IMG/VR virus record: IMGVR_UViG_3300025695_000119
Span: 1 to 20,948 of that record
Reading direction: 5' to 3' (one strand)
Source of the DNA: a virus
DNA: 20,948 nt
A program made the position numbers and the translations under genes. The notes beneath the pieces are model-generated. The model worked only from the letters and a program-made list of their open reading frames with translations, was not told the origin of the DNA and searched no databases. How positions within the stretch are numbered: the first letter of the stretch is position 1; each line of letters starts with the position of its first letter. This document shows, piece by piece, positions 14,001 through 18,561 of the stretch.

Positions 14001-14555
14001 ATGGCTTTACCACATTATTCACAAGATCAGACAAGCAGACAAGGTAGACAGTTTGAACCAGTACAGGCAAATTTGTTTGAAGTAACAGTACTTCCACCAG
14101 CGGGTGTTGCAGATGCACCTTTAATGATTCAACACGTAAACTCAATCGGCGGACTAGATCTTTATAAAGAAGTAGCTGCTGTTGAACAAAAATATAAGTT
14201 CTCAACTAGATCTTATGCAGGAATGCCTGATGCAACAACAGTTGATGTGAATATTAACTTTTCACTTAACTTAAATGATGCAAATCAAGCATACTTATAT
14301 AAATCAATGAGACAATGGTATAATAACCAATACAATCCACAAACTGGAGAATTAGGTTTAAAAAAGGATTACGTTGGAACTATTGTAATTGTACAGTTCA
14401 ACCGAGCAGGTGATATTTATAGAACAGTAACTTTAGAAGATTGCTTTATTACTTCTGGATTACCATTTACAAATGAACTTAGTTATGAGACAACAGATGC
14501 TCAACAACTAGAAGTAACTTGGAGATGTGATACCTGGAGAGAAGTATTAGCTTAA
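14001..14555 (+). CDS. 19: Tail tube protein, T4 gp19-like
   Basis: Subunit of the inner tail tube. 184 residues (T4 gp19 is 163). Recognised by NLFEVTVLPP near the start, the segment ending KFSTRSYAGMPDATTVDVNI, a helix AYLYKSMRQWYNNQYNPQTG, then VQFNRAGDIYRTVTLEDCFI and a C-terminal strand QQLEVTWRCDTW, the beta-sandwich layout shared by tube proteins of contractile tails. It lies directly after the sheath and is closed by a strong terminator, so sheath and tube form the T4-like 18-19 pair. Confidence 0.95.
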   Translation: MALPHYSQDQTSRQGRQFEPVQANLFEVTVLPPAGVADAPLMIQHVNSIGGLDLYKEVAAVEQKYKFSTRSYAGMPDATTVDVNINFSLNLNDANQAYLYKSMRQWYNNQYNPQTGELGLKKDYVGTIVIVQFNRAGDIYRTVTLEDCFITSGLPFTNELSYETTDAQQLEVTWRCDTWREVLA

Positions 14556-14641: not shown

Positions 14642-14857
14642 ATGGATAAATTAAATAAGAAATTACAAGTTCTTTTATCTGAAGATGAAGTTACTACTAT
14701 CAATAGAATTATTTTAAATGAAGCAATAGAACTTGGTGAAAGACCGATTTCAATTTCAGCATTTATTAGACAAATAATTAGAGATGAAATTGACAGAAAA
14801 TCTGATAATTTAAAAGAATGGAAAAAAGATAATTTAAGAAAACTCAAAAAGAAATAA
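14642..14857 (+). CDS. Small ribbon-helix-helix-like protein
   Basis: 71 residues. Layout fits a ribbon-helix-helix DNA-binding fold: a short strand KLQVLLS (7-13), helix A (about 14-31), a turn with GERP, and helix B beginning ISISAFIRQIIRDEI (36-50), where the Ser-x-Phe-Ile-Arg pattern is typical of the second helix. The C-terminal 20 residues are strongly basic (EWKKDNLRKLKKK). RHH proteins act as dimers that insert the strand into the DNA major groove, usually as repressors. It sits between the tube terminator and the gp26-like gene, three bases upstream of the latter, so it is co-transcribed with tail genes. No GATATATA precedes it. The target is unknown; fold assignment is from pattern only. 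Confidence 0.72.
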   Translation: MDKLNKKLQVLLSEDEVTTINRIILNEAIELGERPISISAFIRQIIRDEIDRKSDNLKEWKKDNLRKLKKK

Positions 14858-14860
14858 TTA

Positions 14861-15802
14861 ATGAATAGCGAAGAAAACAACAATTTAAATGACGATTATA
14901 AAAAAATCGTTGAAAGTGCTGAACAACCACAAGAACGTGAGGATTTAGGCCGAGTTGACATGAATAAATTTAAACCACAAGAAGCACAAGAAGCTGATTT
15001 TGTGTTAGGTTATCATAATATTCCAAGCATAGATTTACCATCAGGTGGAATGTTTTATCCTAAAGATACTCAAATTTCTATTCGTAGTGCTAAAGTGGCT
15101 GAAATTAGACATTTCTCAACTATTGATGAGAATAATGTATTAGATGTAGATGATAAATTAAATTCAATTGTAGAATCATGTACTAGGGTTACTTCTAATA
15201 AAAAGAGACTATCCTATAAAGATTTATGTGAAGAAGATCGTTTTTATCTAATCCTATCAATCAGAGATTTAACTTTTCCAGAGCCAGAGTCTCAGTTAAC
15301 AGTTGAACATAAAGATAAAAAAGGTAAAAAGCACACTGTTGAAATTAAGAAAGATTACTTTCAGTATTTTAACATTCCAGACACTCTAGATAAATATTAC
15401 GATGAAGATAAAAGAACTTTCTTAATTGAGACTAAGTCATTTGGTACTATCGAAATGAGACCTCCATCAATCGGAGTAATGCAAAAGATGACTGAATATA
15501 TTAAAGACCGTCAAGAGAAAGGTGAAAACATAGATCAATCAGTATTACAGGTAATGCCATACTTAGTTCATGAATGGAGAGGTTTTACCGAAAAGGATAT
15601 TTTCAAGTTTGAAATTGAAATGAATAGTTGGACAAATAAAAAATACAGTTTAATTTATAAACTAGCAGAACAAATGAAGGTTGGAATTCAACCTGAAATG
15701 AATGTGCAGATTGGGGATGTTGAGGAGGTCGTCCCAATTAGCTTTCGCGATGGCATCAAATCTCTTTTCATTGTTCAAGATATCGCTGGAGAACTTCTTT
15801 AA
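14861..15802 (+). CDS. 26: Baseplate hub / tail assembly protein, T4 gp26-like
   Basis: 313 residues (T4 gp26 is 208). It resembles the family of T4-type baseplate hub proteins: the block IDLPSGGMFYPKD followed by ISIRSAKVAEIRHFSTIDE, an acidic helix ending SIVESCTRV, DRFYLILSIRDLTF and then a charged beta segment. In T4, gp26 and gp51 help build the hub, and other tailed phages have chaperones at the same place that coat the tape measure protein. The frame ends in CTT CTT TAA A, and the next short ORF continues in the +1 frame, so a longer fused product may be made. The final 100 bases use unusually many C- and G-ending codons. Start ATG at 14861, three bases after the RHH stop. Confidence 0.72.
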   Translation: MNSEENNNLNDDYKKIVESAEQPQEREDLGRVDMNKFKPQEAQEADFVLGYHNIPSIDLPSGGMFYPKDTQISIRSAKVAEIRHFSTIDENNVLDVDDKLNSIVESCTRVTSNKKRLSYKDLCEEDRFYLILSIRDLTFPEPESQLTVEHKDKKGKKHTVEIKKDYFQYFNIPDTLDKYYDEDKRTFLIETKSFGTIEMRPPSIGVMQKMTEYIKDRQEKGENIDQSVLQVMPYLVHEWRGFTEKDIFKFEIEMNSWTNKKYSLIYKLAEQMKVGIQPEMNVQIGDVEEVVPISFRDGIKSLFIVQDIAGELL

Positions 15803-15814
15803 AACGAAGTTTTA
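15788..15814 (+). promoter_or_regulatory. Candidate +1 programmed ribosomal frameshift site
   Basis: CTT CTT TAA A at 15794-15803, with the last CTT (15797-15799) directly before the TAA stop. This matches the layout of the prfB site (CTT TGA C), where the Leu tRNA slips from CUU to UUU while the stop is slowly read. A GGAG (15788-15791) lies five bases upstream of the slipping CTT. The stop lies in the loop of a possible hairpin (15790-15797 with 15806-15813). After a +1 shift the frame stays open to 16019. Function is inferred. Confidence 0.45.
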
Positions 15815-15833
15815 CATTTATCTTCACCTTCAT

Positions 15834-16019
15834 ATGCAACCTTCAGAACTGGAGGCCTTGGAATACTATGAATTCCACTATTTAATGAAGGACTTGGCTG
15901 ACTACTTGAAGAAAAAGAATGAAGCTGAAGGCGGTCAACAAGAACAAGGTAACGACATGATGAGCAAGATGAAAATGCCGAACATGAAAATGCCAAGTAT
16001 GAAAATGCCAAAATTATAA
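15834..16019 (+). CDS. Short tail-assembly-chaperone-like protein or +1 frameshift extension of gp26
   Basis: 61 residues from ATG 15834 (MQPSELEALEYYEFHYLMKDL...). The SELEALEYYEFHYLMKDLADYLKK helix resembles the short C-terminal parts of phage tail assembly chaperones, where a Leu-Pro/Tyr-Tyr-Glu helix is common. The tail is methionine-rich: three KMP(N/S/K) repeats. It lies in the +1 frame relative to the gp26-like gene and is open upstream, past the gp26 stop. The leader before ATG 15834 is pyrimidine-rich (tatcttcaccttcat), unlike the A-rich leaders of every other gene here, which argues that this stretch is mainly translated by frameshifting from gp26, adding about 73 residues. Independent initiation at 15834 or a sequencing indel remain possible. 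The tape-measure-like gene is next. Confidence 0.65.
   Translation: MQPSELEALEYYEFHYLMKDLADYLKKKNEAEGGQQEQGNDMMSKMKMPNMKMPSMKMPKL
15969..16013 (+). repeat. 15-bp in-frame tandem repeat, three copies
   Basis: ATGAAAATGCC plus four variable bases at 15969-15983, 15984-15998 and 15999-16013. It encodes the methionine-rich MKMPx repeats at the C-terminus of the chaperone-like frame. Confidence 0.92.
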
Positions 16020-16048
16020 AATAAAGGTCCTAGGACCTTTATTTTTTT
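16018..16048 (+). terminator. Intrinsic terminator ahead of the tape-measure-like gene
   Basis: A perfect 28-base inverted repeat (16018-16045) centred on CCTAGG, with a run of seven T (16042-16048). It overlaps the last bases of the chaperone-like stop codon and abuts the next GATATATA motif with no gap. The symmetry means it could also bind a dimeric protein, but the T run favours a terminator. Confidence 0.88.
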
Positions 16049-16056
16049 GATATATA
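16049..16056 (+). promoter_or_regulatory. Putative late promoter motif GATATATA
   Basis: Exact copy beginning at the base after the terminator T run, 30 bases before the ATG of the tape-measure-like gene. Confidence 0.55.
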
Positions 16057-16086: not shown

Positions 16087-18561
16087 ATGAAATTATTATT
16101 AGCACCTTTAGCTAAACTAGGCAACCTTATTGAAGAAGAAAAGAAGCTGGTTGAGGAAATTCACTCAGTATTAACAGTGGATTTAAAGCGTGCTTCGACT
16201 GAAACTCATAAGGAGCTAAAGCAACATACAGTATTATTAGGTGAAATTAGAGATTTATTAAAGGCTCAAAATAAGCGTCAAGAATCAGAATCTTCTGGTA
16301 AAGCACCAAAGGTAAATCTACCAGGCATAAAGGGTGGAATAGGTGCAGGGTTTGCGATTGTTGTTATGGCCGCGGCTTTAGTGGCTGCTGCGGGTATTTT
16401 TAGTGTGATGCCGTCTGTAGCTCCAGTACAATTATTAACTGCTTTAGCGGTTGGTGGTATCATGTTAATATTAGCCCCAATTTTTGTAAAAATAAGTGAT
16501 TCTTTCGAAAGAAGTTCTGCTAGATTACTATTAGATAAAGTAACTGGAAATAAACTTGGAGATGCCTCTTTAAAGGGTATGATGCAAACTATGGGTACTG
16601 TTGGTTTAGCTGTAATTGGAATGTCTATTGTTACAACGTTGGCGGCTAATATATTTACATTATTACCTTCTAGTTTATCAGGAACTCAATTTTTAGTTGC
16701 CTTAGCAACTGCAGTTGTACTTATACCACTAACGGCAGCAACTAGTCTAATTATAATAGGATTAAGAAGATCAAAATTAAAACTAAATAAGAGTGGATTA
16801 CAGCAAGTTGCAATCTTACCCTTAATAGTATCTGCAATGGCTTTAGGTATTGTTGGAGCTGCTTATGCATTTAGACTTTTACCTAGTGAATATGCTACAT
16901 TACCCGATATTGGTTGGGTGATTAAAACTAGTCTTATTTTATTTGCTTTTTCTTTTGCATTTGCTAAAATTGCAAAAGCAGTTAAAAAATTAAAAGCAAA
17001 AGATTTATTAATGATTGCTTTAGCTATGCCAGTAATTGCATTGGGTATTATTTTAACAGCTAAAGTATTTACAATGATGCCAGGTGAAGATGATTTTAAA
17101 TCACCACCCTTAAAATGGGCAGCTAAAGCAGGTTTAGCAATCTTAATATTTTCAATACCATTTGCAGTTTTAGCAACTTTTGGTAAAATTAGTAAAAGAA
17201 ATCCAAAAGAACTAGGTATGGTGGCTTTAGGTATGGCTGCGATTGCAGGTGCGATTGCAGCGACTGCATGGATTTTTTCAGTTTTACCAGATGAATATAA
17301 ATCACCACCCCTAGATTGGTCTATACGGGCAGGGTTAGCGGTATTGGGATTTGGTACTGCATTTGCTCTAATTGGATTAATAGTAAATAAGGTAGGGAAT
17401 ATCGCAAAATTTGTAATAGCAGGTGCGCTTTCCGTTATTGCAATAGCCGGAGCGATTCTAGCGACTGCCTGGATATTTTCATTTTTACCTGGGACATATG
17501 TTGCTCCTCCAATGGACTGGGCTGTTAGTGCAGCACTTGCAATTGGAATATTTGCTATACCATTTTTAATCATTGGTGCCATTGCTAGTTCAGGTGTTGG
17601 AGCCGCTGGTATTGCTCTAGGTGCATTAGGAATGATATTAATTGCCGGTACGATGTGGGTAGTTGCCTGGATTTTTAGTAAACTACCAGATTTAAGTGCA
17701 ATCTCTAAGAATTTTACAGATGCCATTATGTATCCAGTTAATTCTATGATTGATGCCCTAAATAGATTCAAAAATGAAATTGGAATTGAAAACATGTTAC
17801 CTATGGCTGGTGGTATTTTAGCCATTGCTGGTAGTTGGTTAGCATTAACCGCAGCTTTAGCCGGTGCTGGGATTGGAGATGTTGTAAATAAAGGTACAAG
17901 TTTTATAGGAGGTCTTATTGATAAAGGTGCAAAAGCTCTTAATATTGACAATAAAGTAGATACACCACTTTCTATTTTAGATAAATTAATTGAAAGAAAG
18001 GCAGGCATTCAAGCCTTAGCTAAACCAATGGACATACTTGGAAAAACCTATAAAGTTATTTCAGCATATACAGATTCAGTAGTTCGAGGTATTGGAGCGT
18101 TTGTACCATTCTTAGATGAAGATAACTCTGAGTATTTTACAACTAGTGCGACTGCAGCTGAGAAATTAGCAACCGCTTATCAAAAAATTGGGAAAGCAAC
18201 TGAAACTATGAATGTAGAAGCCATTAAAGAATCTCGTTATATGTTTGAGGCTTTAACCAGATTGGCTGAAGCAGATGGCGAAGATGCATTAACGGTTTTT
18301 GCAGAAAAGCTAATGGTAGCAGTAGAAGAACTTTCAGGTACAGTAGAAAACTTACAAAATGCAGTAGGTGAACAATCATCGGGTATTAAAGATGTAGTTG
18401 GTGGTTTATTAAATAAAGTAACTGATAAAGTAAAAGAAGTTACAGGAGCTGCTGGTGATAAAGCAACAGAAGGAACTAGTACTGATATGAGTGAGGTAGT
18501 TGAGCTATTAGGTGAAATAGAAGAAAGATTAAATAGACCGCTTAGAATAATCGCAGAATAA
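16087..18561 (+). CDS. Tape-measure-like protein with seven hydrophobic repeats
   Basis: 824 residues. Residues 1-70 are charged helix/coiled coil (IEEEKKLVEEIHSVL). Residues about 85-560 are extremely hydrophobic, with many predicted membrane-type helices arranged as seven imperfect repeats marked by (I/V/A)F.(L/M/V)(L/M)P at residues 104, 189, 261, 327, 396, 463 and 529, spaced 66-85. The best copies read A.AWIFS.LP..Y..PP.DW....ALAI..F. Residues about 600-824 are helical and soluble-looking, ending in a Glu-rich helix (VVELLGEIEERLNRPL). Tape measure proteins set tail length and are often hydrophobic and repetitive; the place after tube and chaperone-like genes fits. T4 gp29 (590) shows no similarity I can see. 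An alternative is an injected or membrane-integral virion protein. Confidence 0.7.
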   Translation: MKLLLAPLAKLGNLIEEEKKLVEEIHSVLTVDLKRASTETHKELKQHTVLLGEIRDLLKAQNKRQESESSGKAPKVNLPGIKGGIGAGFAIVVMAAALVAAAGIFSVMPSVAPVQLLTALAVGGIMLILAPIFVKISDSFERSSARLLLDKVTGNKLGDASLKGMMQTMGTVGLAVIGMSIVTTLAANIFTLLPSSLSGTQFLVALATAVVLIPLTAATSLIIIGLRRSKLKLNKSGLQQVAILPLIVSAMALGIVGAAYAFRLLPSEYATLPDIGWVIKTSLILFAFSFAFAKIAKAVKKLKAKDLLMIALAMPVIALGIILTAKVFTMMPGEDDFKSPPLKWAAKAGLAILIFSIPFAVLATFGKISKRNPKELGMVALGMAAIAGAIAATAWIFSVLPDEYKSPPLDWSIRAGLAVLGFGTAFALIGLIVNKVGNIAKFVIAGALSVIAIAGAILATAWIFSFLPGTYVAPPMDWAVSAALAIGIFAIPFLIIGAIASSGVGAAGIALGALGMILIAGTMWVVAWIFSKLPDLSAISKNFTDAIMYPVNSMIDALNRFKNEIGIENMLPMAGGILAIAGSWLALTAALAGAGIGDVVNKGTSFIGGLIDKGAKALNIDNKVDTPLSILDKLIERKAGIQALAKPMDILGKTYKVISAYTDSVVRGIGAFVPFLDEDNSEYFTTSATAAEKLATAYQKIGKATETMNVEAIKESRYMFEALTRLAEADGEDALTVFAEKLMVAVEELSGTVENLQNAVGEQSSGIKDVVGGLLNKVTDKVKEVTGAAGDKATEGTSTDMSEVVELLGEIEERLNRPLRIIAE

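Follow-up and report, generated by a model that had tools for sequence, protein, structure and literature searches.

A gp26-family tail chaperone gene of large phages with a likely +1 frameshift site at UUU_C

Introduction

In an uncultured virus record from IMG/VR, of a large tailed bacteriophage (IMGVR_UViG_3300025695_000119; the 20,948 nucleotides analysed are called the window here), a gp26-like gene ends GAA CTT CTT TAA A, and reading in +1 continues past this TAA as far as 16019 without a stop codon. Is the second frame a gene of its own, or do ribosomes enter it from the first, and where? An initial annotation, which described the gene end and the open +1 frame correctly, proposed a prfB-like +1 slip at the stop codon and a minor, C-terminally extended product. 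Our comparisons uphold such a product as part of a +1 frameshift reading, but place the shift elsewhere. The best explanation, which we consider quite probable, is that the locus encodes two forms of a T4 gp26-family chaperone through a +1 slip at UUU_C, a pair of the lambda gpG/gpGT kind.

Results

Gene order and protein family

The genes of the locus (Table 1) run sheath, tube, chaperone, extension and presumed tape measure, which is the order of G/GT loci; the gp26-like gene thus sits between the tube gene and the tape measure gene, the latter assignment being itself weak. The extension carries a QPSELE...YYEF helical motif and KMP repeats. Within the window, a 71-aa ORF with a weak ribbon-helix-helix match lies between the tube and chaperone genes (14642-14857), a terminator-like hairpin with a T run (AAAGGTCCTAGGACCTTTATTTTTTT; 16022-16050) separates the extension from the presumed tape measure gene, and no tRNA genes were found.

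Table 1. Features of the locus, with window coordinates and the basis for each assignment
Feature	Coordinates	Strand	Basis
Tail tube protein, upstream neighbour	14001..14555	+	PHROG 32623; weak PHROG 3629 tail tube match
gp26-like hub/tail assembly chaperone, frame-0 product, 313 aa	14861..15802	+	PHROG 36717
Predicted long product, 14861-15745 joined to 15747-16019, 385 aa	14861..16019	+	Inferred from the shift site
SD-like GAGGAGG, possible frameshift stimulator	15722..15728	+	GAGG enrichment upstream of the shift site
Likely frameshift site TTT CGC (P-site UUU to UUC; rare CGC in the A site)	15743..15748	+	Invariance and fixed position
Dual-coded stretch, frame-0 C-terminus and start of the putative +1 product (AMASNLFSLFKISLENFF)	15747..15799	+	Substitutions per codon position
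Frame-0 stop TAA; in +1 belongs to TTT AAA (F-K)	15800..15802	+
Post-stop +1-frame extension, 72 aa	15801..16019	+	+1 homologues in all relatives
Presumed tape measure protein, 824 aa, downstream neighbour	16087..18561	+	Position, hydrophobic repeats; weak PHROG 32 tail assembly match

By family, the upstream protein is a hub chaperone of the T4 gp26/gp51 type (PF12322, T4_baseplate), in keeping with its first description as gp26-like. The window protein itself gave no Pfam match; the family cut-off was passed by the gp26-like proteins of LR756500, PAU and LR756502, the first being a close relative (44% identical). An AlphaFold model of the window protein (pLDDT 80.8) resembles baseplate hub subunits of SP-15, VH7D and other phages, at E-values down to 1e-9; T4 gp26 is itself counted among the hub assembly chaperones (PMC3004832). 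PF12322 strongly matches T4 gp26 and gp51 alike, and these two hub chaperones look like paralogues; the gp26-like protein also matches two places per record in LR756502 and LR745206, possibly marking a second, gp51-like copy. Folded alone, starting from TTC, the +1 part gave a helical model of modest confidence (pLDDT 70), with an unbroken helix (residues 3-29) across the frame-0 stop. Pfam and PDB searches with the extension returned no meaningful match, T domains being too divergent for such searches to decide; nothing was significant in the PDB fold search, where the HK97 chaperone 2OB9 appeared only at E 5.8.

The +1 arrangement among relatives

A tblastn search of phage records yielded 31 relatives. 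Almost all of them come from large phages of Bacteroidota (Prevotella Lak, Tenacibaculum, Chryseobacterium and Flavobacterium phages), together with PAU and huge uncultured phages, and scans of IMG/VR contributed 80, 80, 80 and 4 further loci. As queries, MA9V-1 found no new relatives and PTm1 only itself; a genome-contig scan gave a single 3.6-kb MAG contig labelled beta proteobacterium, which is no basis for host assignment. The extension matches LR756500 and PTm1 in the +1 frame, immediately after their gp26-like gene.

All 258 loci share one arrangement: the downstream ORF lies in +1, and that frame is already open at the frame-0 stop. The open stretch past the stop measures 52-156 codons, with frames 0 and +2 usually closed. 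The exceptions are the Lak entries, in which an in-frame TAG ends the +1 reading after 18 codons; Lak phages reassign TAG. This conserved second ORF in another frame strongly supports a shift out of the gp26-like gene, and on such comparative rather than biochemical evidence a conserved +1 programmed frameshift at the locus is very likely.

Dual coding ahead of the stop

Codon-aligned 3' ends were mapped by parsimony on the trees of two clades. Clade A consists of 96 sequences, the window and the kin of LR756500; clade B consists of 60, the kin of LR756502. Changes at positions 1:2:3 in the upstream codons of clade A number 117:107:287, mostly at position 3, against 37:9:12 in the last 11 codons, dominated by position 1, equivalent to the third position of a +1 codon (positions 1 and 3 compared, 37:12 versus 117:287, Fisher P = 3.5e-10). 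Past the stop, changes again fall mostly at position 3 of the +1 codons. Protein-level selection on the +1 frame starts about 11-18 codons before the frame-0 stop and is detectable by codons -15 to -13. The +1 residues L, F, I, S, L, N and F are each conserved in 94-96 of the 96 sequences, and frame 0 varies (I/V, V/I, I/F/L, A/S/T) at several codons whose +1 residues stay near invariant: ATC/TTC/CTC (I/F/L) gives Ile throughout in +1, and GCT/TCT/ACT (A/S/T) gives Ser throughout. The entire overlap is strongly constrained in clade B, where the positional shift is weaker (P = 0.05). The comparison thus shows a +1 frame that is evidently translated before the frame-0 stop; because the last 11 codons carry the +1-frame substitution pattern, ribosomes making the extension would already be in +1 ahead of the stop.

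The shift site

Where the substitution regime changes, a TTT codon (-19 in clade A, -21 in clade B) shows zero changes on the two trees, and the base after it is C, both in 96 of 96 and 60 of 60 sequences; elsewhere in these genes TTT accounts for 73% (clade A) and 57% (clade B) of the Phe codons. In-frame TTTC is fixed at -57 in 81 of 81 distinct sequences of clade A and at -63 in 57 of 57 of clade B, and lies at -54 to -66 in Lak, locus L258, PAU, pT24, LR756501 and MaF61. The residue that follows varies (R, P or Q; L in L258), yet its codon begins with C in every case. Rare codons, CGC, CGT and CCC, fill the A-site position: codon usage in the window gives CGC 3/6365 (0.47 per 1000) and CCC 5/6365 (0.79 per 1000), and clade B prolines are CCC in 59/59 cases at the site versus 4/559 elsewhere. 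No +1 stop falls between TTTC and the extension in any relative examined; the nearest ones sit just ahead of TTTC, by one codon or a few, in LR756500, LR756501 and some LR756502 kin. TTTC is absent at the homologous position in LR756504, MA9V-1/2 and PTm1. An in-frame TTT CAA occurs at -75 in PTm1 and TTT CTA at -36 in MA9V-1, and the site may have moved there.

We regard UUU_C at 15743-15746 as the likely frameshift site. The predicted junction should read ...VVPISF-AMASNLFSLFK, with VGIQPEMNVQIGDVEEVVPISFAMASNLFSLFK as the predicted tryptic junction peptide of the window and ...VVPISFR as its frame-0 counterpart. The GELL-KTKF peptide named in the initial annotation is not expected, because the shift would occur at TTT CGC (15743-15748), 57 nt before the stop. 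A shift at CTT TTC (codons -12/-11) was also considered and rejected: codon -12 varies (CTT, CTC, CTG, TTA, ATG), and the +1 constraint is present earlier, at codons -15 to -13.

An independent start or a slip at the stop

Dual coding alone would produce the same substitution pattern if the extension were a separate, overlapping gene that starts inside the gp26-like gene and needs no frameshift. Start-like codons do exist: at least one +1-frame ATG is kept in every LR756502-kin locus, where separate initiation may therefore occur, and a +1 TTG in many loci of the window clade, the window and its close kin included. However, ATG, GTG and TTG are all absent after the last +1 stop in LR756501 and L258, LR756500 has no start codon until extension codon 10, and the start-like codons of the window clade vary (TTG/TTA, CTG/CTA/CTC/CTT). 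The ATG at 15834 was rightly doubted from the outset, extension codon 12 being ATG in only 7 of 96 sequences. A separate gene also leaves the invariant TTTC and the rare A-site codons unexplained, and we consider it unlikely. What comparison within the window clade shows is a conserved putative shift site and no conserved start codon.

The prfB-like slip first proposed would occur at CTT TAA, the stop serving as the slow A-site codon. It draws on the conservation of GAA CTT CTT TAA R within the window clade and on CUU U being the classic RF2 site, often carried by Bacteroidia (PMC8710568). The codon before the frame-0 stop is CTT in 75 of the 96 clade A sequences, but TTA in 21, and 57 of 60 clade B sequences have GAA TAA; CUU slippage is impossible at either. 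The +1 codons AAC TTC TTT AAR (N-F-F-K) account for the conserved CTT TAA, and N-F-Y-K in their place gives frame-0 CTT TTA TAA (21/96). Moreover, +1 selection begins 11-18 codons upstream of the stop, and the GGAG noted nearby, although present at 15788-15791, is not conserved, its codon being GGA in 54/96. The prfB-type combination of CUU and a stop at the shift with an SD-like element 3 nt upstream is thus not what we find. The TTA TAA and GAA TAA relatives, together with the substitution pattern, led us to reject a prfB-like site at CTT TAA as very improbable; nor does the stop appear to be part of the signal, with +1 coding starting upstream of it and TTA TAA or GAA TAA common. An alignment of relatives, the check that had been suggested, therefore bears out a universal +1 arrangement and an unconserved ATG but not a universal CTT TAA. 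The suggested hairpin with the stop in its loop exists in the window (7 bp; z -2.1 for a 51-nt piece), but all 7 pairs are kept in only 27/96, and it was rejected as a signal.

Candidate stimulators and the direction of the shift

No unusual RNA folding was found around the site (z 0.05 to 0.19 for three of four pieces and a 171-nt fold). GAGG occurs at most 39 nt upstream of the TTT in 96/96 (clade A) and 58/60 (clade B) sequences, against 123/1056 (12%) and 17/660 (3%) of other segments of the same genes. Its spacing to the TTT is mostly 17 nt, PAU, Lak and LR756501 included; the window has two overlapping copies, ending 17 and 14 nt from the TTT. A spacing of about 17 nt exceeds that of known +1 sites, and this SD-like element may act as a stimulator. 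In the window's 15722-15728, Glu codon -26 is GAG, never GAA, throughout clade A, and its amino-acid changes (W, V, T) mostly keep G as third base, a nucleotide-level constraint upstream of the shift site. Bacteroidia generally do not recognise SD sequences; most still retain the prfB frameshift with its SD-like element (PMC8710568).

An SD-like element so far upstream suits backward shifts better, and a -2 shift at the same place, as in phage Mu, would yield an identical product frame. Codon -20 is variable, however, so that tRNA-Phe could not re-pair two bases back, whereas +1 re-pairing onto UUC is perfect in every sequence; we hold a -2 shift to be exceedingly improbable. The record is of an uncultured virus, but an indel introduced in sequencing or assembly, or the mere adjacency of two unrelated genes, has a practically negligible probability given the identical arrangement in 258 loci, among them the isolates PAU, pT24, PTm1, MA9V and MaF61.

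Discussion

We envision that most ribosomes would stay in frame 0 to the TAA and make the 313 aa form. In a minority, tRNA-Phe on the P-site UUU (15743-15745), with the rare CGC waiting in the A site, would slip +1 onto UUC; these ribosomes would pass 18 dual-coded codons, cross the stop and reach 16019, and their 385-aa product would end in a helical, T-like tail. The common part would coat the tape measure and the rare extension recruit tube subunits, as with lambda gpG/gpGT, a likeness we draw because of the gene position tube, chaperone, extension, tape measure. The slippage mechanism, its efficiency, the role of GAGG and the chaperone function are what we infer from these comparisons.

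On this reading of the sequences, the locus would be a new variant of tail-chaperone frameshifting, a gp26-family gene with a +1 UUU_C site; no prior description of a gp26-family UUU_C frameshift was found in the literature searched, which was covered in part. The UUU_C site is kept in viruses from about 168 kb (MaF61) to more than 700 kb, Lak phages included, and would rank among the most deeply conserved UUU_C sites known for bacterial ribosomes. It would also provide a natural +1 system in Bacteroidia hosts, whose ribosomes largely ignore SD sequences, and give gp26, whose role is unsettled in T4, a testable function. The extension has been missed or mis-started in existing annotations of relatives.

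Published accounts describe chaperone frameshifting as conserved among long-tailed phages "except T4", nearly always in the -1 direction. In the single genome of Bacillus phage SP-15 (34990-35929), the order is tube, gp26, extension ORF and large tail protein. The extension there reads in +1, and the gp26-family gene has an in-frame TTT CAC 21 nt ahead of its stop codon; SP15_046 resembles a mis-started piece of this extension. The gp26 genes of Vibrio phage VH7D (KVP40-like; ~123.5 kb) and Acidovorax phage ACP17 (~89.4 kb), again single genomes, end GAT TTT TTC GTA TAA, with U_UUU_UUC and a -1 ORF reaching 53-55 codons past the stop, and are candidate -1 chaperone frameshifts; the -1 ORF of VH7D lacks annotation. 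We give about even chances to the broader view that T4-type myophages have their gpG counterpart in the gp26 family, of which many members would have a gpGT-like form made by +1 (UUU_C, in large Bacteroidota-type phages and SP-15) or -1 (U_UUU_UUC, in VH7D and ACP17), with T4 as a loss.

Among known systems, lambda gpG/gpGT and other tail chaperone frameshifts likewise have the chaperone gene between tube and tape measure genes, and the lambda pair likewise consists of a short major form and a frameshifted C-terminal extension; the lambda type is usually -1, with a tandem slippery heptamer and a short G protein, whereas here a +1 UUU_C site would serve a 313 aa gp26-family protein (PMC5009743). 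T4 gp26/gp51 share their family with the upstream protein (PF12322; PMC3004832), and T4 gene 26 overlaps gene 25, without a comparable extension. SPP1 also has phage tail frameshifts, in roles that differ from those at this locus: gp17.1* (CCC UAA, +1) is a tube protein and gp17.5* (-1) a chaperone (PMC6316719). The prfB/RF2 system, which occurs in Bacteroidia, resembles the proposed one in its +1 P-site slippage, slow A site and SD-like element (PMC12421855, PMC8710568), but shifts on CUU next to a stop codon, 3 nt from its SD-like sequence, where the phage has UUU, a sense codon and GAGG about 17 nt away. The bacterial UUU_Ynn +1 sites, such as Yersinia YopN-TyeA (reviewed in PMC5009743), for which the slippage model is also established, have the tetranucleotide class and bacterial ribosomes in common with the phage site, which differs in being deeply conserved and within a structural operon. 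Finally, influenza A PA-X, the best-known case of this type of site, for which a +1 slippage model is established at UCC_UUU_CGU, offers the same UUU_C P-site slip to UUC with a rare CGN codon and no stop in the A site (PMC3498833); PA-X belongs to eukaryotic ribosomes and an RNA virus and has no homology to this locus, where the A-site codon may also be CCC or CAA and an SD-like element is present.
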